Under the pieces are notes generated by a model. It ran no database searches, was not told the DNA's origin, and saw only the letters and a list, made by a program, of their open reading frames with translations. A program made the position numbers and the translations under genes. From NCBI GenBank assembly GCA_963971425.1, contig OZ020516.1, positions 34,832,199-34,896,198 on the forward strand: DNA of 64,000 bases, written 5' to 3'. This document shows, piece after piece, positions 10,086 through 60,473 of the stretch. This DNA comes from Bryoerythrophyllum caledonicum (lineage: Eukaryota; Streptophyta; Bryopsida; Pottiales; Pottiaceae). Positions within the stretch are counted from its first letter, which is position 1. Each line of letters begins with the position of its first letter.

Positions 10086-10997
10086 AAATTAGAGAGCTAC
10101 ACTTAAAATTTGATATTTTGGTAGAAGTAAAATACTATTTTAAAAAAAACATCTCCATTTTATAGGTTGCAATAAATGTGATTGCCTTAAAATGGATGGA
10201 TGGGAATCATTTCTATTGACAAGATATTAAGAAAAAAATGTTTTATTAGCAATGCAATATGTGGATGTATGGGCATTCAAGGTTTCATACGGGTATTTGT
10301 AGCATTGTAGGATTGAAGTATTGGATATAAAAAGGATAGTTTCTAATTGGAAGAATTGTTATTGGATCCTATCATAATGGATCAAGGGTTTTTCATTAGC
10401 AACTAACACTTGGAAGTTGGATTGGCCTTGAATGTTCCTATTAGAATTATCTTGGAAGTCATACATGAAGAAGAAAAGGAAGACAAGATTTTATCATGGA
10501 GAACAAATTGAGCATGCTCTTGTGTTCTATTTACTATCGTAAGACAATAATATACGAGGTGACAAACGGGATTGAAACCTTTTTACTTTGAAGTTATCTA
10601 CAATTTGAACTTTATTGTTGCATAATCATTAACACATGATGAATATTCCTAGACATTATATCCTTTTTTTTAGACTTATTTTATGCACTGCATACATTGT
10701 GTGATTTATTTAAAGACACATGTTTGAAAATGAAATATATTTAATAATTTTCTTTGAATTGTATTAGTTGTAGGTTTTGTAGTAACGTAATATGTATTTG
10801 ATATATTCAAATGTAATTTTTCATAATACAGATATGAGTGAAATTTGTATTTTAGCATTTATTTGCATGGTTCTTATACACAAAACTAAAAAACATCACT
10901 ATTTACTACCAATTTATATATATATTTAAATAATATATTATACTAAAAATAAATGAAGAATAATGTATGAATTATAATAGAGTTTTATTTGGTTATA
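10086..10997. other. AT-rich spacer, nothing recognised
   Basis: Very AT-rich, with no frame of coding character, no inverted-repeat ends and no RNA gene seen. Confidence 0.5.
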
Positions 10998-11243
10998 GAA
11001 GAAGAAGAAGAAGAAGAAGAAGAAGAAGAAGAAGAAGAAGAAGAAGAAGAAGAAGAAGAAGAAGAAGAAGAAGAAGAAGAAGAAGAAGAAGAAGAAGAAG
11101 AAGAAGAAGAAGAAGAAGAAGAAGAAGAAGAAGAAGAAGAAGAAGAAGAAGAAGAAGAAGAAGAAGAAGAAGAAGAAGAAGAAGAAGAAGAAGAAGAAGA
11201 AGAAGAAGAAGAAGAAGAAGAAGAAGAAGAAGAAGAAGAAGAA
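10998..11243. repeat. (GAA)82 microsatellite, the LINE copy 1 tail
   Basis: An uninterrupted trinucleotide run of 246 bases. Read on the LINE sense (minus) strand it is (TTC)82 directly after the 3' hairpin. The second LINE copy has only four units at the same place, so the run began as the element's tail and then expanded. The poly-Arg, poly-Glu, poly-Ser and poly-Phe frames over it are artefacts. Confidence 0.95.
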
Positions 11244-11480: not shown

Positions 11481-14400
11481 CTAAGGGGGGTCTTGCCTAT
11501 CAGGGAGGACTTGGTTGTTTTCGATTTTGCGTTTATGCAGTAAAATAGACATGGCATGTTGAATAGCGATGGTGTTGATATTTTTAAAGGTAGTTTTAAT
11601 TGTATCAATGGGTATCTTGAAGGTATCTTCGAGAGTTTTCATAGATGGGATAAAGGTGGTGGCACGAGCGCCGGATGTGATAACAATAAGGGGGTCCACA
11701 TTCCAGCCGAGGGCAATGATGTCATCTATGAGGAGTTGGTATTTATCTATTTTGTTTTGTATTGTTTCCGGGGAGAATCTTTCGTTGCAATATGTAAATT
11801 CGATGAATTGAATGGTGTAGTCTTGGTTGATGTTCTCGGGTGGTGGGTCGTTGTATGGTAAACCTTTGACACAAAGAATGTCCGGTTTGAGCCTAGCGTT
11901 GCAATGACATCTTTGAGTCATACATGAGCATGGAAATAGCCATGGGGGGACCGTGTTTTCTTGTGGATTGCTATTAAAAGTGCCGGCGTTCATAAGTATG
12001 AAACATCTCGATTTTTTGTAGGAGGTGATTAGTTTTCGAATTTCCCATACCGCTTTATTATGTCTTTTGATGATTAGAGAGTGAATGTGGTGGTTTTGGC
12101 ATTTGAGTAGCACATGAAGCCATGTGTCGGGGTCCGTTGAGGGGCATATGGGGCATGTTATGGATGGGAATCTTTCTATTCCAAAGAAGAGTTGTTTGCG
12201 AGCGTTTCCCATGTACTGACCCGTACGGAATTTGATGAGGCACGTTATTTGTGAGTCTGAGATGATGGGGTTTTTCCAAAAGTTTGTAGAGAGTTCATTG
12301 TCTATGTCGTTATTGTTAGTCCATTTTTCTATGTTAGGAATATTTTCTGAGATTGTATCCAGGTTGTTGTAGAGGTCTTGTTTTTTGAGATATTTGCCCA
12401 GAAATCTAATTGGGCCTTTGTCAGGGGTATCTTCTTTGGAAGGCCAATCTTCTTTTTGAAAGTAGTATGGGGTGGCATGAGCATGTTCGTGAGGGTCTTT
12501 GGCGTTTTTGTGTGTTTTTTCTCGGCCTTCTTTTGCAAGTTTGTCTGCTTGTTCGTTGCCATCAATGTTGGCATGGGCTCTGACTTTGTGAAGGATTGTG
12601 ATTTGTGTACGTTTTTGTAACATTTGTACCATTGATGTTAGTATGGTTTGGTCGGGGTGACTGTTGTGAAGGGTTGGGTGTGTTATTTGAGTGTTTAGTA
12701 GGTAGAGTGCATTTATACAATCGGTGAATATATGTGCAGGTTCATTTTTGTATTTTGTTGTGATGATTTGTAGTGTTTTGTGAATGGCCATGAGTTCTGC
12801 TCTGAGGATATTTTGCAGTCCATGGAGTCTTTTGGCTAGTTTAATTTCTTTGGTAGAATTATATATGCCATAGCCAGCTTTTTCTCTTCGCCAAGAGCCC
12901 GGGCTAATTTGTTCCGGTGGTTTAAAGGAGCCGTCGGTGTAATAACTGTATGCGGGGTTAAATTTTGGTGTGGTATGAGTTGGGTAGTCTGGGAGAGGGG
13001 GAGGTATGACAGAGTAGTTTAATGTGTTGTTGTCATAGTTTAATTTTGACCATTTTTTACTTTTGTTTACGGGGGTTTGTATGGGTGTTGGTGGGGCCGG
13101 TTTTGTGTATGGTCGTTGTATGTCTAGATTGTCTGTTATGGAGGTAAGTTCCGCAAGTTGTTCTAGGGAGCCGAGGGTTTGATTTTGATGATGGACGCAT
13201 AGTATTTGTAATGTAGATGGCTCTATTCTGGGTTTTTTTAGCTCGGGTGGGATATTAGGTTCTTCGTATGGTATTGTGTCTGCTTCGAATAATGCAATGA
13301 TGTGGGAATCTGGGAATGGGTTTGAATGTTGGTTGTTGTTTTGGTACCAATTGTTGTTCGGTGTGACGATGATTGTTTTTGTGTTATTTGGATCGTGTTT
13401 GGCGGCAAGTCTAGCCCAATGTATGGCTTGTTCTATGTCTTTCTCGTTGTGGGGGTGAGGTATTCCATTTCCCATCCATTTGTGTTCAAAGGCCTTGCCT
13501 AGGGATCCAAATACTTTGTCTCTTTCGTGCGGTGAGTAGAATTTATTTAGTTTGGTAGGACATGTGATCGGGGAGGAAAAATATGAGTGTTCGATGTTAA
13601 AGGATGATATTAGTGAGTCTAAAATGGGGGTGGGTATTGTGTATTGCGCATTTTTGAGGGGGTCAGTTTTGGTTATTCGATATTTATATCTTTGGTGAAG
13701 CCATATTAGTTCGGTTTCAAGGGGTTGGGTTGTTGGTTCAATGTTTGTAGGGGTTTGTAATTTTGTATGATATTGGTTCCATAACCATTGGAGCCGGGTA
13801 ATGGGTATGGTGTGTAAATGTCGGCCATTTTCTTCGTATAGATGTGCTTGATTGTTATCTATTTGAATTGTGTTTGAGGATGTAAGGATATCATTTTCGG
13901 GGTTGCATTTTGTTGTGTAGATGTTTAAGAGTGGGATAATTATGGGTGGCGTTACGGACCTTGAGTCTGAGGATTGTTCTTGTGGATGGTGGGCAAGGAT
14001 GATATCTGAGTATATTTTGTTTTGGATCTTTTGGTAGTATTGTTTTAATTTTTCAGTGTTATGTGTGGAGGTATTGGTGTCATGCCGTGGAAAAAGGTCT
14101 CTTTGGGGGAGCCATTTATTGTATGTATTATCATTGTGTTGCCATTGGCATAGGTATTTTGTGTAGGTATTTTGTATGTTATTTGTGTCTGTGTGTTGGA
14201 TATGTTTATGGTTTATGATATTATTAATGGGGTATGTGGTAGGGTTTTTGGGGATGTATGTTGGGGGGCGGGGGTGGTATGTATGTGGAGGGTTAGGGGG
14301 GTTGGTTGGTGTGGGAATATTTCTTGAGATGATGTTATTGTTGAGGGTGATGAATGGATCTTTAAGTGTATGAGAGTATGGGTGTATGTTGCAAGGAGTA

Positions 14401-17400
14401 TGACATATAGTGGCAACACTTAGGGCACTCTTTATTAGTTTAGATGGGGTGAAGTGGTAGGTTTTGAAGTCCTCATTGTTCATGATGTGTGTACCGTTAG
14501 GTAAGGTAATTTCGTTTAGTTCAAAAATATTTTTTGAGAGGAGTTTTTGTAGAAGCTTTTGGGAGAGTTGGGCATTGAGTGTGTTATGATTTAATGTTTC
14601 TTGGCGCCATAGTATTTCTAGTGTTCTAGGATTAGTGAAGAAGTTCGGGAGCGTACTTTTAAGGTGGGCTTTAGCTATATGTTTTAATAAGAAGAATGTT
14701 CATGTTATTGGTGATCTTATGCAGTCACTTTTTTTAATTCTCGGTATGTTTTCAGCGCCACCATATTGGGCAAGGACATAGTGAGTTAATCCATTATATA
14801 TTTTTTCAAGTCTACCTTTATCGTTTAAAGCATTTTGTAATTGTTCGCCTATACATCGGAGATATGCATTTTTTAGGGAGAAAGCTTCAAGTCCAAATAG
14901 GTTATGTGGGAGTTGGGTTATTGTATTTGACATACATTTTGGTAATCCACATATGGTTTTTTGTATGGCTATTATTTTTTTATCAAGTTTTTTGATAGCT
15001 GGCATAGAGTATGGTACACCGTAGAAACTGTATGCCACACCTGGGCGTAGTACGGTATCAACCATTTTTATTTTTTGTTTCATGGTGGCTGGGCATGTTG
15101 TTAGTTCTTTGCATTGTTTGATGAGTTTTGTCGTTGTGGTGTGGATTTGGATTTTCCATTTTAGTGTAGGAACAAGGTTTGTGCCTAGGTATATGTATGG
15201 TTCATTTTGATGTAGTATGGGGATCGGTTGATTGCGGTAATTGATGTTCGAGGCTTGCAATAGGGCTTTGAAAGTGGTAGGGTTCAATTTGGATTTGTTT
15301 GGGCATCCGGTAGCGGCACATTTTGGGACACCTACGTCCATACCGGCCCATTTACAATATCTATCAATTTTGTTTAGTTGTATTTGGATTGATTTGATTT
15401 TGTTAGTTGTGGTGGCTAGGTCATCCGCGTATGCGGCAGAGTTTATTATGACCTCTGATGTGCCAAAATTGTATCGGTAATTTCCTCTTTCTAGCCATCT
15501 GAGTAGTGGTTCTAGAAATATAATGAATAGGTATGGGCTGAGGGTGTCCCCTTGTATAGTACCTCTTTGGATGGGTATAGGTTTTGTTTTCCCAAAGTGT
15601 TCACCGGTATAACATGTAGATGATTTAGAATAGATGTTTCCAACAAGTGTAGTTGCATCTTTTGGGTAGCCAAGGTCCATCATTATTGCTAGAAGTCGGA
15701 CATGGTCAATTGAGCCAAAGGTTTTTTTGAAGTCCACGTATAGTATGTATATATCTTGGTTAGTAAACTTTGCGTCTTCTAGTGCGGCTATTATAGTTTG
15801 TATTTGTCGTGCGGTACTTCTCTCTGCTCTGAATCCTTCTTGACTATCATATCGGATTTTGAATTTTTCGCCGTATGAGGATAGTATGGAGGTGAGTGTA
15901 CTGGTAAAGAGTTTGTATATTGTGTTAGCTAGTGCAATTGGTCTATGGTTGGGTAGTATGGACGGGTCGCCTTTTTTGTATAGTAGAATTGTTGTACTTA
16001 ATTTCCATGAGTTTGATATCTGTTTTTGTTTATAGCAGTGGGAGAAGAACTGAAATAATAGCTTGTGAAATCTTGGCGGCATGTTTTTTAGTATTGAGTT
16101 TGGTATGCGGTCTGGGCCTGGGGCTTTATTATTTCCAAGATTTTGAAGGCATGTGTCGTATGTGGCTCTGTTGAGGTATTTATGTAGTGGGATTTCTGGT
16201 TCGCCCCGCTTGTCAAGGGTATATCCGTCCAGGTCGTGCCAAGGGTATTGTCGTATTGCACATGTGCATTCTATTGTATGTTGTGGCTGGTAATTACATG
16301 TTGGTACTGTTGGTCTATTGGTTTTTGTTTGTTGGTTAAATATTTCATTCGCAATGTCTTCGGGGCTAGTTAGAATATTATTATATTGATCTTTGATACA
16401 ATCCATTGGTGGGGATTCAAGGTTTTTGAAGACTTTTTTGTTAATTTTTTTGGGGCTGATTTCGTATAGTTGTCTGTATTTTGAGATGGCTTTTTTAATG
16501 TTTTCTTTGGTGTATTTTGTGATTATTCTTCGTGCTTGTATGTTGGCATTTTTTGCAATTATTGCGATATCTTTTATCCATGTATCGTGGGGAAGGTCCG
16601 GAGGCGGCGGGGTAGGGATTTGAATGTGTTGTACAGTTAGTAGTTCGTTGTGTATGGGGTGGTTACGCCATTGAGGGTTGTTTTTTACAATTCTAATGGT
16701 TTTACGTATGGTATGGTATGTGGTTAAGTGTTGTTTCCAAGTTTTAGAAAGTTTGCGGGGTAGATACCCGCCTTGTTGAGAGGTTCTGTTTGTCATTTGG
16801 GGTATTGGATGTGCTCTACAAGTTTGTTCTAGTGTATCAGAGATTTTATTGATGAGTTTGTCTAGAGAGTGGCATGCTTCTTGCCATTGTGCTTGTGTTA
16901 ATTGACTATTGTTTTCAAGAGTGTTTATGAGGGAGTCTATTTGTATGGAGTTTTCTTCGAAGAATTTTGTGTTGAATTTTTCTATGTTGGTTTTTGGGAT
17001 GGGGTTGAGTATGCGTATAGTGTCTTTGTTTGGGATTGTAGGAGTTCTACTAATTAGTGTGTTATTTGGGATGTGCAATTGTATGGGTGAGTGGTCCGAG
17101 ATGAGAGTAATATCTTTGTTTGTTGTGGAGGTGCATTGTGTATTGTTGTTTGTATTTATATAGAATCCATCTATTAAACTCCAATCACTATAATTGTAGC
17201 CACCTTGTCTAGAGAATTGTGTATCGGTATTGATGTAAGTGAAGTTTAAGTTTTCTGTGAAGCGGCGCCATTGGTAATCAATGTTTTGAGGGGGGGTGTG
17301 ATGGTTTCCATTTTGACGGCCAATTAGTGCTATGTCTCTATTGAAGTCTCCACATAATAGGTATGTATGATTGGGATGATTATTAATATGGGATGTAATA

Positions 17401-18120
17401 GTGTTTTGTATATCTAAGAGAAATCTAGTATCTTCGGGATGGGATGGCATATACATGTGAAAGATTAACCACGGTTGTAGTGGGCGATTAGTGATCTTAA
17501 TTATTTGAATGTATGGTGATATGTGCATTGGGGTAGGGATTTTGTTGATGTTGCCTGGGAAAGTATATTTTTTGTGTATTAATGTAAGGAGGCCACCGCG
17601 GCCCGGTGTGTATGGTCTCCTTTGTTGCATGCATCTTGTAAGTGCATGTGTATTGTTAAAGATGAGTTTATAGTTTTGAAATATATTTTGTATATATTTT
17701 GTAGATTTTGTGGCGGTTAGTTTTGTTTCTTGTATAACTATAAGAGTCGGTGGTGTGTCTGTGTTTGCGACTAAAGTTTGTAAGCTAGGAAGGGCAGTGT
17801 TTAGTGAGGAGGCATTCCATGTGATTATGTATGTATTTTCTTGGTTTGGTCTATTGTTTTGATTTTGATTTTGAGGAGGGATGTAGGGAAGAGGTGGGGG
17901 TGGGTGGGTGTATTTTGGTATAGGGTCTAGACATTTTAGTGATTCATTTATAAGGTTGTTAGGGAGGTAATGGAATTTTAGTTTTATTATATCATTTGAG
18001 GGTGGTATGTCTTGACTATGTAAGAAGTCGTATAGTCTTTTATGTATTGAGTTCTCATGGTTTATAATATTTTGGTTGTCTACTAGGAATTCATTATAGG
18101 GGTGTGGAGGTAAATGTGTC
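11481..18120 (-). pseudogene. LINE polyprotein: AP endonuclease, reverse transcriptase, RNase H, restriction-like endonuclease
   Basis: One frame runs from about 18120 to the stop at 11481, broken by a TGA at 14700-14702 where copy 2 has CGT. The AP-endonuclease keeps CGDFNRD (about 17330-17352) and SDHSPI (about 17085-17102). The reverse transcriptase has SQEGFRAERSTARQ, RGTIQGDTLSPYLF and YADD (15420-15431). After a roughly 300-residue interdomain region comes RNase H: YTDGS (about 12928-12942), RAELMAI, FTDCINAL and GNEQAD (about 12540-12557). The C-terminus has CPIC...H...C (about 12095-12155), RHN (12057-12065), KPD (11880-11888) and FIEF (Glu at 11799-11801), the motif series of R2-type restriction-like endonucleases. 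The frame joins the 18083-18478 frame through a frameshift, so I treat it as a nearly intact pseudogene. Confidence 0.9.
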
Positions 18121-18478
18121 GTTCTGATGGGTTTTGTAAGGTTAGTAAGGTTTGTAGGAGTGTATTAGTCCATGTAATTGTGTTCAAATTTTGTGGATTT
18201 AGAAGTTGGTTACATTCATCTATGTTTGGATGAGTAGTGATTATTAGTGTATATAAGATGTGGGGTGGTGGATGCGTATTTTTTTGTTGTATGTATTGGG
18301 CAATGTTTGGGTGGGAAATGTTGTGTATGTGGTGTAATGTATGTGTGTTTTTTAGAAATGGTGCGAAGGGTTTTGCAATGTGTTCATATTCTGGTTGGAG
18401 TTTTATGGTATTAGGTATAATGTAGATTTTGGCATTTTTCTTATGTGATGTAGGATGTCTTTTTAGTATATTGGGCAT
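18083..18478 (-). CDS. LINE N-terminal segment after 2A
   Basis: A 131-residue frame starting MPNILKRHPTSHKKNAK directly after the 2A motif. It is Lys/His/Asn/Thr-rich with no recognised domain, and it may be a nucleic-acid-binding leader. The equivalent in copy 2 (49740-50147) begins the same way. Comparing the copies shows independent small indels near the 3' end of this frame in each. Ancestrally it was probably continuous with the endonuclease frame rather than a separate ORF1. Confidence 0.6.
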   Translation of the reverse strand: MPNILKRHPTSHKKNAKIYIIPNTIKLQPEYEHIAKPFAPFLKNTHTLHHIHNISHPNIAQYIQQKNTHPPPHILYTLIITTHPNIDECNQLLNPQNLNTITWTNTLLQTLLTLQNPSERHIYLHTPIMNS

Positions 18479-18523
18479 GGGTCCCGGGTTGGTTTCAATG
18501 TCTCCTCCTAGAAGTAGTAGAAG
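18479..18523 (-). other. 2A ribosome-skipping motif, LINE copy 1
   Basis: Minus-strand codons read KLLLLLGGDIETNPGP followed directly by the ATG at 18478-18476. This matches the 2A consensus D-[VI]-E-x-N-P-G-P with the usual Leu-rich lead. 2A sequences make the ribosome skip the Gly-Pro bond and continue, releasing the upstream peptide. They are known in some APE-type LINEs of trypanosomes and animals. In this copy a TAA lies four codons upstream of the shown stretch, so the leader frame is broken here. Confidence 0.85.
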
Positions 18524-18550
18524 TTTGTGGTATATATGTTAAGTGGTGTA

Positions 18551-19720
18551 TTTTAAAGGCTTTGTTGTGTTATTAATGACTTGTTGGTTTGGGGGTAGGT
18601 GAATGTTTGTATTTTGTGTGTAGGTTGTGGGTTTATTTATTTTTATAGTAGGTGTAGTTGTTTTCGTCTTTAGTTTATTTTTTGTCCATGTGTTTTTTGT
18701 GGTTGTTTTTGTTTTAGTAGTGTATGGATGTATGTATGATTGGTTGTATTTTATCTTGGTTGTTTTTGTCCGTGTGCATATGTAACTATTATGTTTAAGA
18801 CTATTTGTATGTGGGTTTATGTTGGTTTTTAAAGTGGCTTTTAAGTCCTTTTTTTCATATGCCGTGTTATTATATACTTTGTGGTTTGTACAATTGTTTG
18901 TTTTGGTGTTTGTATTAGTATTTGGTATGAAATATGTTTTGGCACTTTTTGTGCGAAGCGGGGTGTCTTTTTAATATGTTCGGCATGGATCTTGGGTTAG
19001 TCTCCATGTCTCCTCCAATTAATATTAGTAGTTTGTAGTAGATGGGTTTTTTGTTTTGTTTTAGAATTTTTTGTTTTTGAATGTGGCTTTGGTATTTGTG
19101 TTTTTTTGATTGTATGTGTTTGTCTTTGTATGTGTGTATGTATATGTATGTGTTTCGTTGATGGTGTGTGGTTGTCTTTGTGTGTGTGTATGTAGTTTTA
19201 TGTGGTTTTATATTAGTATTCTTTTGTATGTTTGTATTAGTGTATGTCACGATTTTTGTCTTGGTATTTGTATCAGTATCTTTGTTAGTATTTGTGTTAA
19301 TATTCATATGAGTACACGTACCAACATTTGTATTGGTATTTGCATTAGTATAAGTATCAGTACTTAGTATTAGTAGTTTGTAGTAGATGGATTTTTTGTT
19401 TTGTTTTAGAATTTGTTGTTTTTGTATGTGACTTTGGTATTTTATTTTGTGCTTTTTTGTTTGTATGTATTCGTCTTTGTATGTGTGTGTGTGTATGTAT
19501 GTGTTTCGTTGATGGTATGTGGTTGTCTTTGTGTGCGTATATGTAGTTGTGTTTATATTAGTATTTATATGTATGTTTGTATTTGTACACGCCTCAGTAT
19601 TCTCCATGGTATTTGTCTCGATATTCATATTAATCTTTATGTAGGTATTCATATCAGTATTTGTACTTTATTTGGTTATATATATAATTTGGAAGAAACA
19701 TTAGTACAAATTTTTCAAAG
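18551..19720 (-). repeat. Duplicated LINE 5' region with Thr/Asn-coding repeats and a degenerate 2A
   Basis: The minus-strand frame 18915-19652 (245 codons) holds two tandem units of the LINE 5' leader. Each unit has a Thr/Asn repeat run, then HQRNTYI, then KQNKKxIYYKLLIL. The second unit continues into GGDMETNPRS and MPNILKRHPASHKK, so its 2A motif is degenerate (PRS instead of PGP) and the frame stops soon after. The underlying DNA is a drifting hexamer of the TTTGTATTAGTA type. It shows that the 2A-preceding leader was once open and translated with the motif. Whether it is tandem 5' monomers or an older truncated insertion is unclear. Confidence 0.7.
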
Positions 19721-23268: not shown

Positions 23269-24828
23269 TCACGGATTATTCCCTGGGCCATCAGCGGTCT
23301 TCGCCGGACGTCGATTCAAGTAACGAATCACCGCATCTTCCACCCTTCATTTCCACCATTCATAGTAAGTCCAATGCAAACACAACTAGCGTGCTTTAAG
23401 GACATAGGACCATCTGTGATGATATAGTACCATGAAAATACAACTAGTCCAATGCAAACACACACCTAGTGTACCATGAAAAAACAGGACCGATACGTAC
23501 CATGGCTGATTGTAAAAATCAGATCTTCGCTCTTTCTCCGAGTTCCGACTGTTCTGCCCAATGACCATTTTGAGATCGCGGCTCTGCGACGCAATCAGGC
23601 CATTGATGAAATCCACGGGGGAGTGACTGAAACCCAGGAAGTACGCGCGCCGCCGCCGATGCTCATTGATTTTCCGAATCGTATTCGCAATCATGTCATC
23701 ATAGAGATCAATATCCCGGTGCTTCTCGATATTCGTCAAAAACTGGCTCATCTCCTTCAACAGAGGTGCAGGAATGTTCACACTCACATCGTAACACGCA
23801 TTCCCTGCAGGCATGTTCCCCGAGAGCCTGATCCGGTGCTGCAGATGGATCGGCTGCGGCGGGCTAAGATGCTGGTGCAGCCGCGATGAGATCGACGCGA
23901 ACTTGACCCGCTCGTCCCCGAGCACTCTCTGCAGCGCCGCATCGCAATTGACCATCGTTGGATCCGCCGGGTTCTGCAACTTCTTCGTCTTGATATACTG
24001 CCACACCGCGGCGATAATGTGCGGCCGCGTATCCACCTCCACACCAAGAACCTGCGCCAACGCCGGCGAGAGCTTGAACCGCTCGGGGTTATGGTCCATC
24101 TCCAGTCGAATACTCACATCGCACTCCACATTCCCGCGCCGCTTGATCTCAAACCCCTCCACATGGCTCGACGCCCGCGCACTGTCCCACACAATCGTGT
24201 TATTCTCCGGGTAATGCAGCGGGTCCAACTGAATCGTAATCCGCTTGAAGAAGGAGGAGAATTTCGGCAACGCCGGGTTCAACGCCTCCTCGGGCTCCAG
24301 CACGCGCCCCATGACGCGCAGCGTCCACGACGGCGCCTCCGCATACTGCTGCTGCTGGAACGGCGCGCTAGGGTTTCCACCCTGATTCGCAAACGTGTTA
24401 AAAACGTACATCCGCAGCACGCGCTCCACGGGCGGCGGCGAACGCACCACCTCCTGAATATCCAGCTTCTTCCGCGCCAGCGCCGCGTCCACGCGCGCCT
24501 CGAACTCCACCAGCTGCGTGTAGATCGCCGACTCCGGCAGCAGCGCCGACACCTTGTCCGGGATCTGCTTGTCTGCCACCTTCTGCTTTTTCCGCCGCGC
24601 CGCGGGGGTCACGTCCGCAGCCTTGAACGCGGACGAAGAGTTGCCGCCCCCAGCGTTCGCCCCCATCGGCCGCCCGCGCCCCCGCTTCGCACTCGCACTC
24701 CCCCCTCCCCCAGAAGGCGGCGTCCCTATCTGCTGCTGCCCATGGCCCGCCATGGGCGCTCCCATCTGCCTGGCCTGCTGGCCCAGCGACACCGCCCCGC
24801 CGCTGGACGACGCGCCGCCCTGCATCAA
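23269..24828 (-). CDS. SWP73: SWI/SNF complex 60-kDa subunit (SWP73/BAF60, SWIB domain)
   Basis: Core subunit of SWI/SNF chromatin remodellers in the nucleus; plant members are called SWP73 or CHC1. Exon 1 is 24828-23501 and exon 2 is 23344-23269, with a 156-bp phase-2 intron (donor GTACGTA, acceptor AATGAAG). The joined protein is 467 residues. The last exon supplies VEDAVIRYLNRRPAKTADGP, which completes the conserved end after DFYNQPW. An N-terminal Gly/Gln/Ser-rich region with an AT-hook-like KRGRGRP leads into VTPAARRKKQKVADKQIP. The SWIB/MDM2 fold spans about residues 245-322 (PERFKLSPALAQVLG to LHQHL). It is somewhat shorter than seed-plant homologues at the N-terminus. The CDS is markedly GC-rich compared with its flanks. 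If read through the intron it would carry an unrelated tail. Confidence 0.95.
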
Positions 24829-43132: not shown

Positions 43133-46100
43133 TTAGGAGGGGTCCTGTGTATCGGGGAGGGCTTGGTTGTTTTCGATTTTGCGTTTATGTAGAAGAATGG
43201 ACATGGCATGTTGGATAGCTATGGTGTTAATGTTTTTAAAGGATGTTTTAATTGTTTCAATGGGTATCTTGAAGGTGTCTTCTAGAGTTTTCATAGATGG
43301 GATAAAGGTGGTGGCCCGAGCGCTGGATGTGATTACCATAAGGGGGTCGACATTCCATCCAAGGGCGATGATGTCGTCAATAAGGGGTTGGTATTTGTCT
43401 ATTTTATTTTGGATTGTTTCCGGGGAAAATCTATCGTTGCAATATGTGAATTCAATGAATTGAATGGTGTAGTCTTGGTTGACGTTATCGGGTGGTGGGT
43501 CATTGTATGGTAAACCTTTGACACAAAGGATGTCCGGTTTGAGCCTAGCGTTGCAATGACATCTTTGGGTCGTACATGAGCATGGGAGTAGCCACGGGAG
43601 GACCGTATTTTCTTGTGGATTGTTATTGAAAGTGCCGGCGTTCATTAGTATAAAACATCTCGATTTATTGTAGGAGGTGATTAGTTTTCGGACTTCCCAT
43701 ACCGCTTTGTTATGTCTTTTAACAATTAGGGAGTGTATGTGGTGGTTTTGGCATTCGAGTAGAACATGTAGCCATGTGCCGGGGTCCATTGAGGGGCATA
43801 TGGGGCATGTTATGGATGGAAATCTTTCTATTCCAAAGAAGAGTTGTTTACGGGTGTTTCCCATGCATTGACCGGTACGGAATTTCATAAGGCATGTTAT
43901 TTGTGAATCGGTGATGATGGGGTTTTTCCAAAAATTTGTAGAGAGTTCATTGTCTATGTCATTGTTGTTAGTCCACTTTTCTATGTTAGGAAAGTTGTCT
44001 GTGATTGTGTCAAGATTGTTATGTAGGTCTTGTTTTTTGAGGTATTTGCTCAGGAATCTAACCGGGCCTTTATCGGGGGTGTCTTCTTTGAAGGGCCATT
44101 CTTCTTTTTGGAAATAGTAAGGAGTGGCATGGGCGTGTTCATGTGGGTCTTTGGCATTTTTATGTGATTTTTCTCTTCCTTCTTTTGCAAGTTTATCCGC
44201 TTATTCATTGCCATCAATATTAGCATGGGCTCGGACTTTGTGGAGGGTTGTGATTTTTTCTCTTTTTAGTATCATTTGGACCATTGATTCTAGTATGATT
44301 CGGTCGGGGTGACTATTATGGAGGGTAGGATGTGTTATTTGGGTGTTTAATAAGTATAGTGCGTTAATGCAATCTGTAAATATGTACACCGGTTCATTGT
44401 TGTATTTTGTTGAGACAATTTCTAGTGTTTTGTGGATGGCCATTAGTTCTGCTCTGAGGATATTTTGCAGTCCATGTAGTCTTTTGGCTAGTTTGATTTC
44501 TTTCGTTGCGTTGTATATTCCATAACCGGCTTTTTCTCTGCGCCAAGATCTCGGGCTAATTTGTTCTGGCGGTTTAAAGGAACCATCAGTATAGTAGCTA
44601 TATTCGGGGTTAAATTTAGGTGGGGTGTTAGTTTGATACTCCGGGAGGGGTGGGGGTGTTAAGGTGTAGTTTAGTGTATTGTTATTGTAGTGTAGTTTGG
44701 ACCATTTTTTGCTTCTGTTGACAGGTGTTTGCATTGGCGTTGGTGGGGTCAATTGTGTGAATATCCGGTGTACGTTTAGAGTCTTTGCTATGGAGGAGAG
44801 TTCTTCTAGTTGTTCTTGTGTGCTTAGAGTATGATTTTGGTGGTGGATGCATATTATTTGTAGAGTGGATGGTTCAATTCTGGGTTTTTTTAGATCTAGT
44901 AGGATGGTGGGTTCTTCATATGTTATTGAATCCGCTTCGAATATTGTGATGATGTGTGTATCGGGAAAGGGGCCCGAGTGTGGATTATGATTTTGGTTCC
45001 AGTTTTTGTCTGGGGTTATGATTAGGGTGGAGGTGTGGTTTGGGTCATGTTTGGCCGCAAGGCGGGCCCAATGTAGAGCTTGTTGTGTTTCTTCTTCATT
45101 GTGTGGGTGGGCCATACCATTACCTATCCATTTGTGGTCAAAGGCTTTGCCTAGTGATCCGAATATTTTATCTCTTTCAAAGGGGGAGTAAAATTTGTTG
45201 AGTTTGGTGGGGCATGTGACGGGGGAGGAGAAATATGAGTGTTGGATGTTGAATGTGGAGATTAGTGAATTAAGTATAGGTATGGGTAGTGTATATTGTG
45301 TAAGTTTAAGGGGGTTATTTTTTAGTATTCTATATTTGTATCTTTGGTATAGCCAAATGACTTCGGTTTCGAATGGTTGGGTTGTTGGTTCAATGTTTGT
45401 AGGGGTTTGTAGTTTAGTATTGTATTGATTCCACAACCATGTGAGCCTAGTGATTGGGATGGTAAAAAGATGCCTTCCATCTTCTTCGTATAAGTGTGCT
45501 TGGTCTTTGTCAATTTTTATTGTGTTAGATGAGGTAAGAGTGTCTTTTTCGGGGTTGCATTCTGTTGTGTAGATGTTTAGTAGGGGGATTATTGTGGATG
45601 GGGTGACGGACCTTGTGTCTTGGGGTTGGTTTTGTGGGTGGTGAGCTTGGATAATTTCGGTGTAGAATTTGTGTTGAGTTCTTTGATAACATTGTGTCAA
45701 TTTATTTGTGTTATGTGAGATGGTGTTTTGGTTGTGTCTTGGGAAGAGGTTTCTTTGGAGGAGCCATTTGTTGTAAGTGTGGTTATTGTGAGTCCATTGG
45801 CATAGATATCTAGTGTAATTGTTTTCTATTTGGTTTTTATCTATTTTTCCCTTGTATTCGTGGTGTATGATGTTGTTAATGGGATAGGTGGTGGGGTTTT
45901 TGAGGATGTGGTTTGGGGGGTGGGGGTAGTGTAGGTGGGAGTGGGGAGGGTGGATCGATTGTATGGTGATATTTCTTGGGGTGATGTCATTGTTTATAGT
46001 GATGAATGGGTCTCTAATTGTATGAGAGTATGTATGTGTATTGATATGTGTATTGGGTGGGGGGGGATATATTGGGTGACAAAAGAGTTGTCGTGCAATT

Positions 46101-49100
46101 TTAGGGCACTTTTAATAAGTTTTGATGGGGTGAAGTGGTAGGTTTTAAATTCTTCATTGTTTATGATGTGTGTTCCGTTGGGTAGGGAGATTTGTTTTAG
46201 TTCGTAGATATTTTTTGTTAGGAGTTTTTGTAATAACTTTTGAGATAATTGTGTGTTGAGTGTATTATGGTTTTGTGTTTCAAGAGTCCAGGCTTTTTCT
46301 AGTGTTGTTGGTTCTGTAAGAAAGTTGGGGAGAGTGTTTTTTAGGTGGACTTTTGCTACGTATTTTAGTAAAAAGAAGGTACGTGTTATTGGTGATCTTG
46401 TACAATTTGTCTTTTTTATTCTACGTATGTTTTCTGCCCTTCCATATTGTGCGAGGATGTGGTGTGTTAGGCCTTTGTATATTTTTCCAAGTCTGCTACT
46501 GTCATTTAGAGCGTTCTGGAGTTGTTCTCCTATGCATCTAAGGTATGCGTTTTTTAGTGAGAAGGCTTCTAGTCCAAAGAGGTTGTGTGGAAGTTGGGTA
46601 ATTATGTTAGACATACATTTTGGCATGCCGCATACGGTTTTTTGTGTGGTAGTTATTTTTTGGTCCAGTTTTTTGATGGCGGGCATTGAGTATAGTACCA
46701 CGTAGAAGTTGTATGCCACGCCCAGTCTTAAAACTGTGTCGATCATTTTTATTTTTTGTTTCATAGTGGCCGGACAAGCTACTAGTTCTTTGCATTGTTT
46801 GATTAATTTTGTGGTGGTGGCATGAATTTGGATTTTCCATTTTAGGGAGGGGACGAGACTTCTTCCTAGATATGTGTATGGTTCGTTTTGGTGTAGAACA
46901 GGTATTTGTTGGTTTCGGTAATTAATGTTAGAGGTTTGTATTAGGTCTTTGAATGCGGTGGGGTTTGTTTTTGATTTATTTGGGCATCCAGTGATGGCAC
47001 ATTTTGGGACCCCTACATCCATACCTGTCCATTTGCAATACCTGTCTATTTTGTTGAGTTGTATTTTTATGGCGTTGATTTTGTTGGTTATGGCCGCAAG
47101 GTCGTCCGCATATGCCGTGGAGTTGATGGTGGTTTGTGATGTCCCGAATGTATATCCATTGTTGCCTCTATCTAGCCATCGAAGTAGTGGTTCTAGGAAT
47201 ATAATAAATAAATATGGGCTTAGGGTATCTCCTTGTATTGTTTCCCTTTGGATGGCTATGGGTTTAGTTTTACCAAAGTGTTCTCCTGTGTAGGAAGTTG
47301 AGGATTCGGAGTATATATTTCCCACTAGTGCGGTGGCGTCTCTGGGGTATCCAAGGTCCGTCATTATGGCTAAAAGTCTAGCGTGGTCAATAGAGCCGAA
47401 GGCATTTTTAAAGTCGACATACAATATAAATATGTCTTGGTTTGTAAATGTACATCTTCTAATGCGGCTATTATTGTTTGGATTTGTCTAGCGGTGCTTC
47501 TTTCTGCGCGGAATCCTTCTTGACTATCATGTAGTATTTTATGTTTTTCGCCATATGATGATAATATTGATGTGAGTGTGCTCGTAAATAGTTTATAGAT
47601 GGTATTGGCTAGTGCGATGGGTCTATGGTTCGGTAGCATGGATGGATCTCCTTTTTTGTATAGTAGGATCGTTGCACTTGTTTTCCATGAAGCGGGGATT
47701 TGTCTTTGTTTGTAGCAGTGGGAGAAGAAGAGGTTTAGTAGTTTGTGGAACCTTGGGGGCATATTTTTTAGGATAGAGTTCGGTATGCGGTCCGGTCCGG
47801 GGGCTTTGTTATTTCCTAGGTTACGTAGACATGTGTCATATGTAGCTTGTTTAAAGTATGTGTGTAGTGGGGTTTCCGGGTCTCCTCTTGTTTCTAATGT
47901 GAATCCATCTAGGTCATGCCATGGATATTGTCATACTGCGCATGTGCATGTAGTGCGGTGGTCCGGTTGATAGTTGCATGTGTTTACCATAGGTGTGTTG
48001 TTTTTTGTTTGTTGGTTAAATATTTCGTTTGCAATGTCTCTGGGCTAGTTAGTATATTGTTATAATGGTCGATGATGCAGTCTAATGGTGGGGACTCCAT
48101 ATTTTTGAATATTCTTCTGTTTATTTTCTTGGGGCTAGTTTCATATAGTTGTCTGTATTTGGAGATGGCTTTTCGAATGTTTTCTTGGGTATGTTTGGTG
48201 GTGATTTTTCGGGCTTGTATGTTGGCATTTTTTGCAATTAATGCTATGTCATTTATCCATGTGTCGTGAGGTAGGTGTATGGGGGGTGGATTAGGGATTT
48301 GTGTGTGTTGAAGGTTTTGGAGTTCGTTGAGAATAGGGTGGTTTCGCCATTGGGGGTTGTTATTTACGATTCTTATGGTTTTCCGTATGGTGTGGTAGAT
48401 GGTTAGATGTTGTTTTCATGTTTTAGATAGTTTCCGGGGTAAATATCCACCTTGTTGTGATGTTCGATTTGTCATTTGTGGTATGGGTTGGGCTTTGCAA
48501 GTTAGTTCAATTGTATTGGATATGTTGTTGATGAGTGTATCTAGGGTGTGACAGACTTCTTGCCATTGTGTTTGAGAAAGATGGTTATTAGATTCCAATT
48601 CGTTTATTAGGGAGTCAATGCGTAGTGAGTTTTCCTCGAAGAATTTTGTGTTGAATAATTCTATGTTGTTTTGTGGGATGGGGTTGAGGATACGTATGTG
48701 GTCATTGTTTATGTTGGTTGGTGTACGGTTTATAAATGTGTTGTTTGGGATGTGGAGTTGTATAGCTGAGTGATCGGAGTTCAGATGAATGTTATTATTT
48801 GTTGTGGAGGTAAATGTGGTATGGTTAGTTGCACGGACGTAGAATCCATCAATTAGGCTCCAGTTGCTATAGTTGTATCTTCCTTGTCTAGAGTATACAG
48901 CGTTTGTGGGAATGTAATTAAAGTTTAGGTTTTCTGTAAATTCTTTCCATTGAAGGTCTATTAATTGTGGTGGTGTGTGTTGGTTTCCGTTTTGTCTACC
49001 TATGAGGGCAATGTCTCTATTGAAATCACCGCATAAGATGTGGTTGTGGTTAGGGTCGTTGGTAATATGGGTGGTGATGTTAGTTTTGATGTCCTCGGTA

Positions 49101-49800
49101 TGTCTGATGTCTTCGGGGTAGGATGACATGTATATGTGGTGAATTAGCCATGATTGTAGTGGGTGATTAGAGATTTCCAAAATTGGAGGTATGGGGATAT
49201 ATTCATCGGGGTGGGGATTTTTTTGACATTGCCTGGAAAGACGTATTTTTTGTGTATGAGGGTGAGGAGGCCCCCTCGGCCTGGTGTATATGGTCTTCTT
49301 TGTTGTATGCATCGTGTTAGGGCATGTGTGTTATTGAAAATAAATTTGTAGTCGGGAAATAGTCTTTGTATATATTTTGTGGATTTTGTGGCCGATATTT
49401 TTGTTTCTTGTATGACTATGAGTGCCAGTGGTGTGTTAGTGTGTGTAATTATGTTTTGTAGGTTTGGAAGTGCAGTATTTAGGGATGAGGCGTTCCATGT
49501 TATTATGCTTGTGTTGTTGTTCGTATGTGGGTTGTGGTTTTGTGGTGGGATGTGGTTTGGTGGTGGGGGTGGATGAGTGTATTCCGGGAGGGGGCTTAGG
49601 CATTTTAGTGCCTCGTTTATGATAGTGTTAGGGAGGTAGGGAAATCTTTGTTTTACCATGTCATTTGTTGGGGGTGTATTTTGGTTGTGTATAAAGTCAT
49701 ACAATTCTTTGTTTATCGATGTGTTGTGGGTTATGATGTTTAAGTTGAATTCAAGAAATGTTGTGTGAGGATGTGGGGTACTAATGTGTCTTTCGGGGGG
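43133..49800 (-). pseudogene. LINE copy 2 polyprotein, decayed
   Basis: Same domains as copy 1: endonuclease with CGDFNRD and SDHSAI (48416-49704), reverse transcriptase with YADD (47101-47112), RNase H (YTDGS, RAELMAI, FTDCINAL), and the C-terminal CPIC / RHN / KPD / FIEF module (43133-43888). Lesions seen: TAA in place of a Gln codon in GNEQAD (44201-44203), a frameshift near 46000, a one-base deletion near 47425-47460, a deletion near 48045, a TGA replacing Trp at 48416-48418, and a one-base deletion near 49797. The catalytic residues of both endonuclease modules are unchanged relative to copy 1. Confidence 0.9.
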
Positions 49801-50147
49801 TTTTGTAGATTATGTAGAGTGTGAAGGAGTGTATTGGTCCATTGGGTTATGGTTTGATTTTGTGTGTTTAGGAGTTGATTGTAGAGGTCTATGTTGGGGT
49901 GTATAGTGATGGCTAGGGCATATAGAATGTGGGATGGAGGACATTCGTTGTGTTGGTTTTTATATGTGGCAATATGTGGGTATGCGTTATTATGTTGTTG
50001 ATGTAATATATGTGTGGTTTTGAAAAGGGGGGCAAATTTTTGGGCGATGTGTTCGTATTCGGGTTGTAGTTTAATGATATTTGGTATGAAATATGTTTTG
50101 GCATTCTTTTTGTGTGAAGTGGGGTGTCTTTTTAATACGTTCGGCAT
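49740..50147 (-). CDS. LINE copy 2 N-terminal segment after 2A
   Basis: Frame beginning MPNVLKRHPTSHKKNAKTYF directly after the 2A motif, 135 residues. It leaves the main frame through a one-base deletion in a run of C (near 49797) relative to copy 1. Unknown domain, Asn/His/Thr-rich. Confidence 0.6.
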   Translation of the reverse strand: MPNVLKRHPTSHKKNAKTYFIPNIIKLQPEYEHIAQKFAPLFKTTHILHQQHNNAYPHIATYKNQHNECPPSHILYALAITIHPNIDLYNQLLNTQNQTITQWTNTLLHTLHNLQNPPKDTLVPHILTQHFLNST

Positions 50148-50190
50148 AGGTCCTGGGTTAGTCTCTATGTCTCCTCCGATTAATATTAGT
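50148..50190 (-). other. 2A ribosome-skipping motif, LINE copy 2
   Basis: Minus-strand codons KLLILIGGDIETNPGP then ATG at 50147. Upstream codons KQNKKPIYY remain in frame with it, as in the duplicated unit at 19020-19090. Confidence 0.85.
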
Positions 50191-50309
50191 AGTTTGTAGT
50201 AGATGGGTTTTTTGTTTTGTTTAAAGTTTTTTTGTTTTTGTATGTGACTTTGGTTTTTTTTTATTGTATGTATTTGTTTTTGTATGTGTGTATGTATATG
50301 TATGTGTTA

Positions 50310-56386: not shown

Positions 56387-58053
56387 CAGTGGTCAGCAGA
56401 AGTGTTCGGACAGGACGCTTCCACTTCCAATATAAGCTAGTTTTCTTACGTAACTCACATTCAAGTTGTAAAAATTTAAACATACAATCACATAGTTACA
56501 AAAAACATGTAACATAACATTCATAATAAAAAATGTCAATCAAGAAATCAATCAAAATAAAACACATGATGTGGGTGTCCAATTCTTTATGCAAAAAGTG
56601 AAGTGGTTATCTATTTACATTGGAAACAAAGCCATGAGCTACAAAATCAAGCTAAAAACTTGAATGTAGAATCATGAGGACTACCTCAAAACTTGAATGT
56701 ACAATCATAATGACTACCATCGTGTATAGCCACCTTTTGCTTGATAAACATCTGCAGCTCTCTCAGGCATAGACATGATCAATTTCCTCACGGTATCAAT
56801 CTCAATGCTATACCAAATTTCTTGCAATTTCTCCCACAAATCCTTCTTGTTAGTGGGTTTCTTCTTTGACATTCTCATACGACGATCTACTTCATTCCAA
56901 AGGTGTTCTATAGGATTCAAGTCAGGAGATTGAGCCGGATGCCAAATTAGTTGAAACTTCTGTGCTAACAACCAATCTGTAACATACTTAGAAGTATGTT
57001 TGGGATCGTTGTCGTGCTGAAAAATAACATTCTCCTCTCCTAAATCATACATGTGTATAGTATTCATGAGCTCCATCTCCAAAATTTCACGATACACAAA
57101 CTTATCCATGTTTCCTTCTATAAGACGAAGGTTGCCAATTCCCTCCCAAGTCATACATCCCCAAACCATAATGTTTCCACCTCCAAATTTGATAGTAGGT
57201 TGCACATGCTGATCTAAAAGATGCTCTCCTCTCTTCCTCCAACAATACTGCCTCCCATCTGAGCCAAACAAATTGAATTTTGACTCATCTGAAAAAACCA
57301 CATAACTCCAGTCCATCCAACTTGCATGCCTACACTTCTTTGCCCATGCATATCGACGTGCTTTGTGTTTCTTTGACAAGAATGGCTTCTTAGTTTTCAC
57401 TCGTGCTCTCAATCCTTGCCTCTGAAGACATCTTCTAATTGTATCATCACTCAAATCCAATCCTTGAGATCGCATTTCTCTACCCACTGCTGCAGCTGTA
57501 CCATTAGATGGTGCATTCAACAACCTTACAACCTCACGATCACCACGTTTCATCAAGAATTCGAGGTCTCCCTTGTGAAGGAGCATCTCTCAAATGACCT
57601 CTCATTGTAAACCTCCGCACAATAGCATGGCAAGTGCTTCGAGAGATGCCTAGAACCGCTGAAATTTCGGAGTACGAATTCCTTCTCTCATGCATCTGAA
57701 GAACTAACTTACGTTCAGCAAGAGTCCTTCTAGGAGCCATAGCTAATCAAGAGCAATCTTATTCAATCACAATGTGTCTTGAAATGCAAGAGGTCTCCAT
57801 AAATACATGTCGATTCTCAAGATTTTTCAGATGCACAACTTGTGTGCATAATGAATTGGACACCCATGATTGACACATCATGAACTGCAGCCCATGCAAG
57901 TGGCTCAATGTGAATGATGGTACTCTTTCTAGTTTACAAGTGGCTCTTTAGTTATAATTAGCTGAAAAAATCAGCACCTACCTACCAAACTCGACAAGTG
58001 TTACTATTAAATTGAGATTGTAATTACTGTCCGAACACTTCTGCTGACCACTG
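56387..58053 (-). mobile_element. Tc1/mariner DD34E element, 1667 bp
   Basis: Perfect 27-bp terminal inverted repeats at 56387-56413 and 58027-58053 (outer end CAGTGGTCAGCAG), flanked by TA at 56385-56386 and 58054-58055. The transposase is on the minus strand. Removing the element and one TA restores the hAT frame exactly (KQIALY then IRNHHVPMALF), confirming borders and target. Confidence 0.97.
56714..57740 (-). pseudogene. Tc1/mariner transposase with one frameshift
   Basis: About 341 residues if the single-base shift is ignored, a normal Tc1 length. The first frame (57740-57540) holds the HTH (MAPRRTLAERKLVLQMHERR, ISRSTCHAIVRRF) and GRPRILDE. The second (57586-56714) holds GDREVVRLL and the catalytic domain: FSDESKFNLFGSDGR, FQHDNDPKHTS and PDLNPIEHLW, with 34 residues between the second Asp and the Glu (DD34E). 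The shift is one extra base around GATGAAACG (about 57553-57561). Everything else is intact and the inverted repeats are perfect, so this is a very recent copy, or intact if the extra A is an error. Confidence 0.92.
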
Positions 58054-60473
58054 TATATCCGGAACCACCATGTGCCCATGGCCCTTTTTCGTCGATTTTC
58101 GCCAAATTTGTCTCTATTGTGGCCAGCAGCAACAAGGTTTGCATGCAATTACATAATGATCCATCGTCTATTGGAAGTGAAGAATGCCCTGGAGATGGTT
58201 GTGATAGACCCAGCATGGATATCCTACGTGTCCTCTCTTTTCGATAGGCAAAACGGGCACCGTGCCCATGCGAAGGCATCGCAGGTGCGAGCCACCGTTC
58301 TAGACAAGACTTTCTGGCATCGGTGCACGAACTTTGAATTTATAGTGGCACCAGTTCTAAAGGCATTGCGGACTTTTGATGGTGACACTCCGGCAATGGG
58401 AATTGCTTGGGTGACCATGAACAAGCTAAAAGAGCACGTGTTCAAGCTGCGTAATGCGCCATTCAACATGCTTGACGGAATTGCAACTCGCCTTGAAGGA
58501 TCATTCCTACGGCGTTGGGAGATGATGACAACAGATCTCCATTATGCAGGGGCTTTATTGAATCCTTATCTAGCCAATAACTTGCAAATTCAAAACAATG
58601 GTGAGGCCAAAAGGGCCCTAAACAAGGTTGTTATGACGCTCTGTGGTCCGCTCGGAGTGTCTTTTTCGGCAGTAATGCTCGAAATCACGGAGTATGAAGA
58701 ATTGCGAGGCCCATATTCACCGGAGGAAGCTGGGGAAATTGAAAACAGCAACCTGTTGCCTCACCAGTGGTGGAACCGCGTGGGCGGGCAATCATTGCCT
58801 ATCATAGCGAAGCGTATACTAGCACAAACCTGCTCGGCCTCGTCATGTGAGCGTAATTGGAGCATGTATTCGTTCGTGCATAGTAAGAGCCGAAATCGCT
58901 TGGGAGTGCAGAAAGCGGAAGATTTGGTCTACATCTACACGAATAGTCGATTGCTCCGAGAACGTGCTCGTCCAGACCCGATTCGATGGTATGAGGAGAA
59001 TGTGCATTCGGAGGAGTCTGATCCAGATGGGGGGACTTCCTTCAAACACAGAGGACGAGGGCTTGGAGTCGGATGATGAGGGTTACAACTGGATGGGCGG
59101 CGATTGGGAAGACCTTGCCGGTGACAACAACCCCGTGTCTGATCATAGCGCACCTAGGGACAACTGTGCAAACAACGAGCACGGTGGAGATGCACTACAT
59201 GACCATTTTCACAACGTCCACGGTGACCCAGTGGATCCTTTTGTGTTTGATGATGTCGACGCAGCGGCTGTCCATACTATAGTAGAATTATCGGGTGAAG
59301 ACCGTGCCGAAGCAGCTAGGGCAGACGAAGATGGGTCGGCATTGGGGGGCAATCTTGATGGAGATGACAACATCTCGGAGAATCAGTCTCCCAACTCAAA
59401 CGGCTCTAGCGCCTCAGGCCCTTCTAATGGCGATGGCCCTGATCTCGACGGTCATGGCATTGGCATTGCAGCGAAGAATACATTTCCTCACAATGGAAAC
59501 GAAGTGAGCAGTGTGAAAACAATAATGAATCCCATGAGCCAATGGCCACCACGGGGTCCATTGAAGTTGTGAGAAGCTCTCCGGTTTTGCCTCAAGCAAC
59601 CGAACCGGACTCGGAGGAAGACATGCCACTACAAGATTTGTTTCGGCGGCCACGTGCTCAAAGTACCGCATCGATCGGAAGAACTCTTTTACGTGTAAAG
59701 AAAAAGACCTCTTCAACAATTGTTCGGCCACCCGTTCACCGTAGCGCACTTGGCCCAAATGGTGGTGTGGAGCGCGCGATACTAACCCCACAACTTCCCT
59801 CCGCGAGGGCAGGGTCCTCTACTATGAGCAGCCATTTGGGGACACAGAACTTCGGTACTCTCCCTTTCTTCACGGGACCTTGGCGAAGCGGAACCTCGGA
59901 GAGAGTCATTGGGGCCAAAGGCAACCGCTCCAAAAACATGGATGGAGTAACAGACAAGAGGAAGAATATCCGAGTAAAACGACTTGTGAATGCCGCATTA
60001 ACTACCGGAGCCGAGCTACAACTACGAAACTTGGCCTCGGAGATTGAGGAGTACGTGGCACCAGTCTTGGAAAATTCAGCGGAGAACTTCTCATCATCGG
60101 GTGATGATGCAGACGATGAGGATTGCGATGAAGTACCTGGCGACAATACGGTGGTGCTTCGCGGGCTTTCTCTTCCCCAAAATGTTCGCCAATCAAAACG
60201 GAAGCGGAAACACAATGAAGAATCCTCAAGCTCAGATGATTAAAAGATGACGGACACGAGGGTACTACAAGTTAAAAGTGTTTTTAGTTGTCTGGTGTTA
60301 GCATGGTACAATAGAACCGCGGTTTTAAAATATGTACTTGGTGTCGAGAGTGCCCATTCATGAAAGCACCACATTGAAATAAATAATTTTAATGTTAGAG
60401 CTCCCTGGTACAATTGTATTCTTTCAAATTCTCTAAACCTCAGCCCTTTTGAGGGGCAAACGCAGTGTTCGAC

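Follow-up and report, generated by a model that had tools for sequence, protein, structure and literature searches.

Does a 2A (StopGo) ribosome-skipping site operate in a plant LINE? The question is raised by a locus in a stretch of 64,000 nucleotides, hereafter the window (G000:C3:34832199-34896198 in a host assembly of 437 Mb and 894 contigs). We consider it probable (about 0.82), judging from sequence, that selection has maintained a 2A site across a large group of land-plant, probably moss, non-LTR retrotransposons; the skipping itself is what we infer from this retention. The preliminary description had reported two copies of GGDIETNPGP followed by Met and a third, degenerate copy with NPRS, and all three were recovered in place, on the minus strand like all 2A sites of both LINE copies in the window. 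The core DIETNPG lies at 18482-18502 in copy A and at 50151-50171 in copy B, with the final Pro and the Met codon directly after it. The block of copy A reads KLLLLLGGDIETNPGP (18479-18526) and is followed by MPN, the Met codon being at 18476-18478; that of copy B reads KLLILIGGDIETNPGP (50148-50195) and is also followed by MPN. The degenerate copy, GGDMETNPRS (18987-19016), belongs to a decayed 2A, KLLILIGGDMETNPRS (18987-19034), in the leader upstream of the copy A motif. The two intact motifs had been called independent; they are indeed two, but they sit in two related LINE families (A and B) that are 78% identical over 7.1 kb.

Neither window copy preserves the frame around the motif. In copy A, the Thr/Asn/Lys-rich leader region (18527-19667, minus strand) carries a 345-bp duplication at 19019-19659 and its frame is broken, and a stop interrupts the motif frame 11 codons ahead of GGD. 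The motif is held by an ORF of 151 aa (18083-18538, minus strand), whereas the first part of the main frame (P0001, 1154 aa, 14700-18164, minus strand) lies in a different frame, the change occurring about 110 codons past the motif. P0001 starts about 105 codons past the motif, and relatives match it from its residue 9 onward, about 113 codons past the motif. An extra in-frame stop separates P0001 from the second part of the main frame (P0002, 1072 aa, 11481-14699, minus strand). Copy B was aligned with copy A from the 2A to the coding end (43135-50204, minus strand); it is split into several frames, and its motif lies in an ORF of 188 aa (49740-50306, minus strand). Two earlier claims, that the motif leads into the main frame and that the leader is open and in frame with the motif, therefore fail for both window copies; both hold only in other, intact genomic copies. 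Since both window copies are damaged, the fusion of leader and enzymes is visible only in the other genomic copies. An (AGA)82 run (window 10997-11243) abuts the 3' end of copy A, and the similarity to copy B stops at 11231; the run could represent a target or belong to the element as an end-repeat.

Pfam searches placed an APE endonuclease (PF03372, 17304-17825; 25.5 bits against a cut-off of 24.5) and a reverse transcriptase (RT; PF00078, 15183-15968) in P0001, and their presence in one frame identifies the element as a non-LTR retrotransposon (LINE). The best solved relatives of the RT are R2 elements (E 2e-28), and a scan of viral contigs with P0001 returned no relative. P0002 contains a PCIF1-like domain (PF12237, 13356-13757) and RNase H (PF00075, 12522-12950). 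The PCIF1-like domain scored above the cut-off in both copies (within 44201-46111 in copy B) and sits between RT and RNase H in each; against solved structures its sole match was a weak one to PCIF1 itself (6irx, E 0.5). We know of no described LINE with a PCIF1-like domain, and a literature search on PCIF1 and retrotransposons found none. Near the C-terminus, C-x2-C-x9-H-x4-C with RHN, a candidate R2-type zinc motif (12057-12155), and KPD...E...K..KY (11739-11888) were read by eye, all these features being on the minus strand. Both copies contain C-x2-C-x9-H-x4-C, RHN and PD...E...K..KY within their last 333 residues, which are 90% identical between them; profile searches of the C-terminal part gave no match for the zinc motif or a second endonuclease. 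The PD-(D/E)xK motif is a candidate for a second, restriction-like endonuclease. If this candidate holds, APE, a restriction-like domain and RNase H together correspond to the Dualen/RandI plan, and we would possibly be dealing with a dual-endonuclease (Dualen-like) LINE.

In a genome search with P0001, 40 of 7,989 candidates were scored; all 40 are at least 95% identical, and their open frames reach 3,764 codons. Within family A, a single frame of at most this length encloses the 2A; as many as 1,416 leader codons precede the motif and about 2,300 codons follow it, so that there is coding sequence on both sides. Five family A copies were selected for their long frames. Upstream of the motif they stay open in its frame for 1058, 1216, 1333, 1407, and 1416 codons; no stop occurs in this frame over the first 10-14 bins of 300 nt, against many in the other two frames. 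In C15, one of these copies, a stop occurs 232 codons past the motif. When stops were summed over the 360 codons before the motif in 27 motif-bearing copies (26 from the P0001 search plus L004; L010, L011, and L012 gave equal values and may be non-independent), the motif frame contained 50 and the other frames 539 and 805. The leader is stop-free over this distance in 20 of these 27 family A copies and contains stops in 7, which disposes of the concern, voiced in the preliminary description, that the leader might never be in frame with the motif. An in-frame Met is present within the open stretch before the motif in 23 of the 26 family A copies outside the window. Indel lengths relative to L010 were multiples of three for 86 of 129 leader indels and 13 of 17 body indels, a comparison to which we give little weight, in which shared indels of related copies are counted repeatedly and L034, L011, and L012 are left out. 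The loci seen in the other families often have a short or broken leader: seven of them (L001-L003, L005-L008) have 21, 374, 49, 175, 41, 98, and 433 open codons upstream of the motif, and five of these stretches contain no Met.

The lack of Met at these five loci accords with the alternative that survives best, in which translation of the enzyme polyprotein starts at the Met after NPGP, with little or no translation of the upstream frame and with the motif as a relic or by-product. The same can be said of the motif ORFs of copies A and B, which on inspection both lack a Met in the interval from the upstream stop to the motif, and of the presence of MPN after the motif in 16 of 16 compared loci, which were chosen for the motif and not for MPN. 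The distribution of stops among the three frames speaks against such a start, and the long open frames and in-frame Met codons of the other genomic copies lower its likelihood. The ATG after NPGP would also be in a weak start context: a C three bases before an ATG makes such a context, and this base is always C because the preceding codon is CCN.

Retention of the motif was counted in 30 family A loci (L009-L038, the window's own included), which had been gathered without the motif core. The exact 2A block is present in 27 of the 30, the exceptions being a deletion within the block (L028), NPGS (L035), and unrelated sequence at the site (L034). For family D, a motif-free query revealed that DIE[K/Q]NPGP adjoins the match in at least 33 of 35 places of at least 88% identity, a lower bound because the other two places may differ at x (89 of 5,191 candidates were scored). 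In family C, N-P-G stands before P in 86 of 100 among the matches listed for P-MPNVF-x-NHP, an anchor that includes the last Pro of the 2A; the whole counts are 249 and 218, for patterns that are not nested. These retention counts cover families A, C, and D, while the RT copies of family B are older and more broken. An absence of the motif from most members, which had been considered beforehand, is not what these families present. The neighbouring upstream duplicate has decayed to NPRP, with Arg at the NPGP glycine in 25 of the 30 family A loci and gaps or other changes elsewhere. Since the residues of the motif are kept while the adjacent duplicate decays, an untranslated motif is unlikely.

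The degree of conservation was compared along the element in the same 30 loci. Per segment of 8 codons, 3 copies are altered in the 2A core, whereas the mean is 16.6 for leader segments, 6.0 for those past the 2A, and 3.4 for those of the enzyme body; segments kept as well as the core (no more than 3 of 30 copies altered) are 2 of 357 in the leader and 68% of the body. Among the segments listed from -140 to -12, between 4 and 19 copies are altered, and in YHKLLLLL only 2 are. Conservation in family A tightens at the 2A, and the core is kept like the enzymes, no better. The dN/dS values in family A are 0.74 and 0.83 in the leader, 0.46 in the block, 0.33 in the next 120 codons, 0.23 in the APE region, and 0.07 in the RT region (n = 15-27, copies with stops left out; the block value comes from copies chosen for having the motif). 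The leader is weakly constrained, as would be expected if translation began at the Met after NPGP. On balance we consider such a start, in place of skipping, unlikely; a Met start and 2A skipping may coexist.

The stretch past the block is itself conserved, as the mean of 6.0 altered copies and the dN/dS of 0.33 indicate, and this suits a second alternative, in which the block is kept as the N-terminal region of the enzymes, for example as a hydrophobic segment working as a fusion protein without skipping. What is conserved across families, which are about 53% identical at the lowest over 465-467 residues downstream of the motif, is nevertheless the set of residues that defines a 2A: the 16 compared loci share an L-rich stretch and GDIExNPGP (EDIE in L005) besides MPN, and the core D(V/I)ExNPGP, the L-rich hexapeptide with Gly at p11, and conservation at the amino-acid level were all found. 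According to the available part of PMC12846837, an L-rich hexapeptide with G at p11 and D at p12 marks a class of viral 2A sites, and related sites with this hexapeptide class are active in vitro. An N-terminal role without skipping is thus, in our judgement, a little less probable still than the Met start.

Across the entire host genome, the degenerate-codon pattern D-[LIVFM]-E-x-N-P-G-P gave 882+838 = 1,720 matches and the reversed version of the pattern 2+0, and the 100 genome matches listed vary in synonymous codons and at the x residue. In the six frames of the window D[VI]ExNPGP has 2 matches, against 0 across 40 order-2 Markov simulations of the window. LEAFY (LFY), a marker of land plants and their close algal kin, scored above the cut-off 7 times in the host assembly and 0 times in 14 control genomes of undisclosed kinds. 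A host LEAFY exon translates as INKPKMRDYVHCYALHCLD, in which we take the Asp of MRDYVHCYALH to be a moss marker. The window also contains a SWIB-domain gene identified by its domain match (23386-24828, minus strand), which presumably resembles plant SWP73/BAF60. From the LEAFY matches and the SWIB-domain gene, the host was read as belonging to the land plants or their close kin, and probably to the mosses. Although 2A-bearing LINEs from animals and trypanosomes would offer a source, a chance match, contamination or an assembly artefact has a negligible probability in view of these match counts, the simulations, the LEAFY genes of the same assembly and the SWIB-domain gene. Elsewhere in the window, a Tc1/mariner-type transposase (HTH_Tnp_Tc3_2 and DDE_3) and a hAT dimerisation region lie close together (56714-57589, minus strand, and 58048-59076, plus strand).

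Retention of a working 2A, the reading that we prefer, would operate as follows. A single family A frame of about 3,400-3,760 codons would encode a low-complexity leader, the 2A, and the enzyme polyprotein. At L-rich-GDIExNPG|P, the nascent chain would block formation of the last Gly-Pro bond, so that the leader would be freed at Gly and the same ribosome would resume with a separate polyprotein starting with Pro-Met-Pro-Asn. This second product would hold APE, RT, the PCIF1-like domain, RNase H, and the candidate second endonuclease. Given the order of leader, 2A, and enzymes, the 2A occupies the position of the ORF1/ORF2 boundary in two-ORF LINEs. The leader could have an ORF1-like role in RNA binding or assembly, as its Lys content suggests (52 of 377 residues in the L010 leader). 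That a 2A can be active in plant cells is reported in the accessible part of PMC4981915.

The leaders differ by family and consist of Thr/Asn/Tyr repeats or of Gln, Gln-Pro, Asn/His or Thr/Ser runs. In L039/L010 (C8), L002, and L008, the Gln, Gln-Pro or Asn/His runs ahead of the 2A are hundreds of codons long and in frame with it; some residue runs upstream of the motif may be flanking microsatellite. The part of the family A leader that contains the dead 2A (window 19154-18919) is 89.5% identical to copy B, against 78% for the live 2A and the enzymes, and by this comparison the family A leader contains a piece of a B-type 5' end. The leader of the C7 copy (L041) contains an additional 2A-like sequence, LLLLLGGELEINPGP, which shares the frame of the main 2A, and this copy might make three products. 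The B-type piece and LLLLLGGELEINPGP together suggest that foreign 5' ends have been captured in the leaders of family A. A search of the C7 leader found no Pfam family in its 1,407 residues. A tandem unit of 123 bp recurs both in the window upstream of copy B (51710-50977) and in the C4, C7, and C11 leaders of family A; since it equals 41 codons, the repeat length preserves the frame.

A tentative idea, to which we give somewhat less than an even chance, is that the 2A acts as a detachable joint. Since the upstream part would be cut from the enzymes, the leader would be free to be swapped, lengthened or replaced, through captured 5' ends of other families or in-frame microsatellites, and an inner, captured 2A would be silenced (NPGP to NPRP), leaving the new leader whole. 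If so, the 2A would drive leader turnover in a plant LINE perhaps equipped with two endonucleases.

If a working 2A is retained, a land plant, and perhaps a dual-endonuclease LINE, would join the natural users of 2A. The abundance of the motif across families that differ at nearly half of their residues would provide a natural mutational record of a plant 2A in which a live site and a decayed duplicate stand within one molecule, and the system bears on how one-ORF LINEs manage without a separate ORF1.

LINEs bearing a 2A are known from animals and trypanosomes; in these, Heras et al. in 2006 and Odon et al. in 2013 reportedly placed the 2A in frame and tied it to the one-ORF layout. The elements described here resemble them in having a 2A in frame in a LINE, tied to a one-ORF layout. 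They differ in their land-plant host, in an RT that is nearest to R2 among solved structures, in the presence of RNase H, a PCIF1-like domain, and a candidate second endonuclease, and, in family A, in a very long repetitive leader. The animal and trypanosome elements are cited in the part of PMC11512398 that was available. Neither a plant LINE nor a Dualen with a 2A turned up in our literature searches on 2A in plant LINEs, LINEs generally, Dualen, and mosses; their coverage excludes Repbase and many papers, and we do not claim a first case.

Compared with the viral L-rich 2A/StopGo sites, as covered by the available part of PMC12846837, the present motif shares D(V/I)ExNPGP, G at p11, D at p12, and the L-rich upstream stretch. 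The L-rich classes given there end in (A/S/C)G, with which families C (CG) and D (SG) agree, whereas A and B have GG. The present 2A sits in plant retrotransposons and not in viruses, and the same part of this 2026 survey notes no evidence of natural 2A use by plant viruses. With the green-algal Dualen/RandI elements, as described in the accessible portions of PMC3636483, PMC4640811, and PMC8226300, the present elements have in common APE, RT, RNase H, and, at the C-terminus, a candidate PD-(D/E)xK motif with CCHC; they differ in their land-plant host, in a second endonuclease that is a candidate, and in the 2A, which those portions do not mention. Finally, the N-terminal 2A of sea-urchin NLR proteins, in the part of PMC4981915 at hand, belongs to host immune proteins and has a signal-sequence role, whereas the present one belongs to a retrotransposon. 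The two are alike in that a 2A near the front of the protein would free a leader, and the sea-urchin 2A is the one found active in plant cells.
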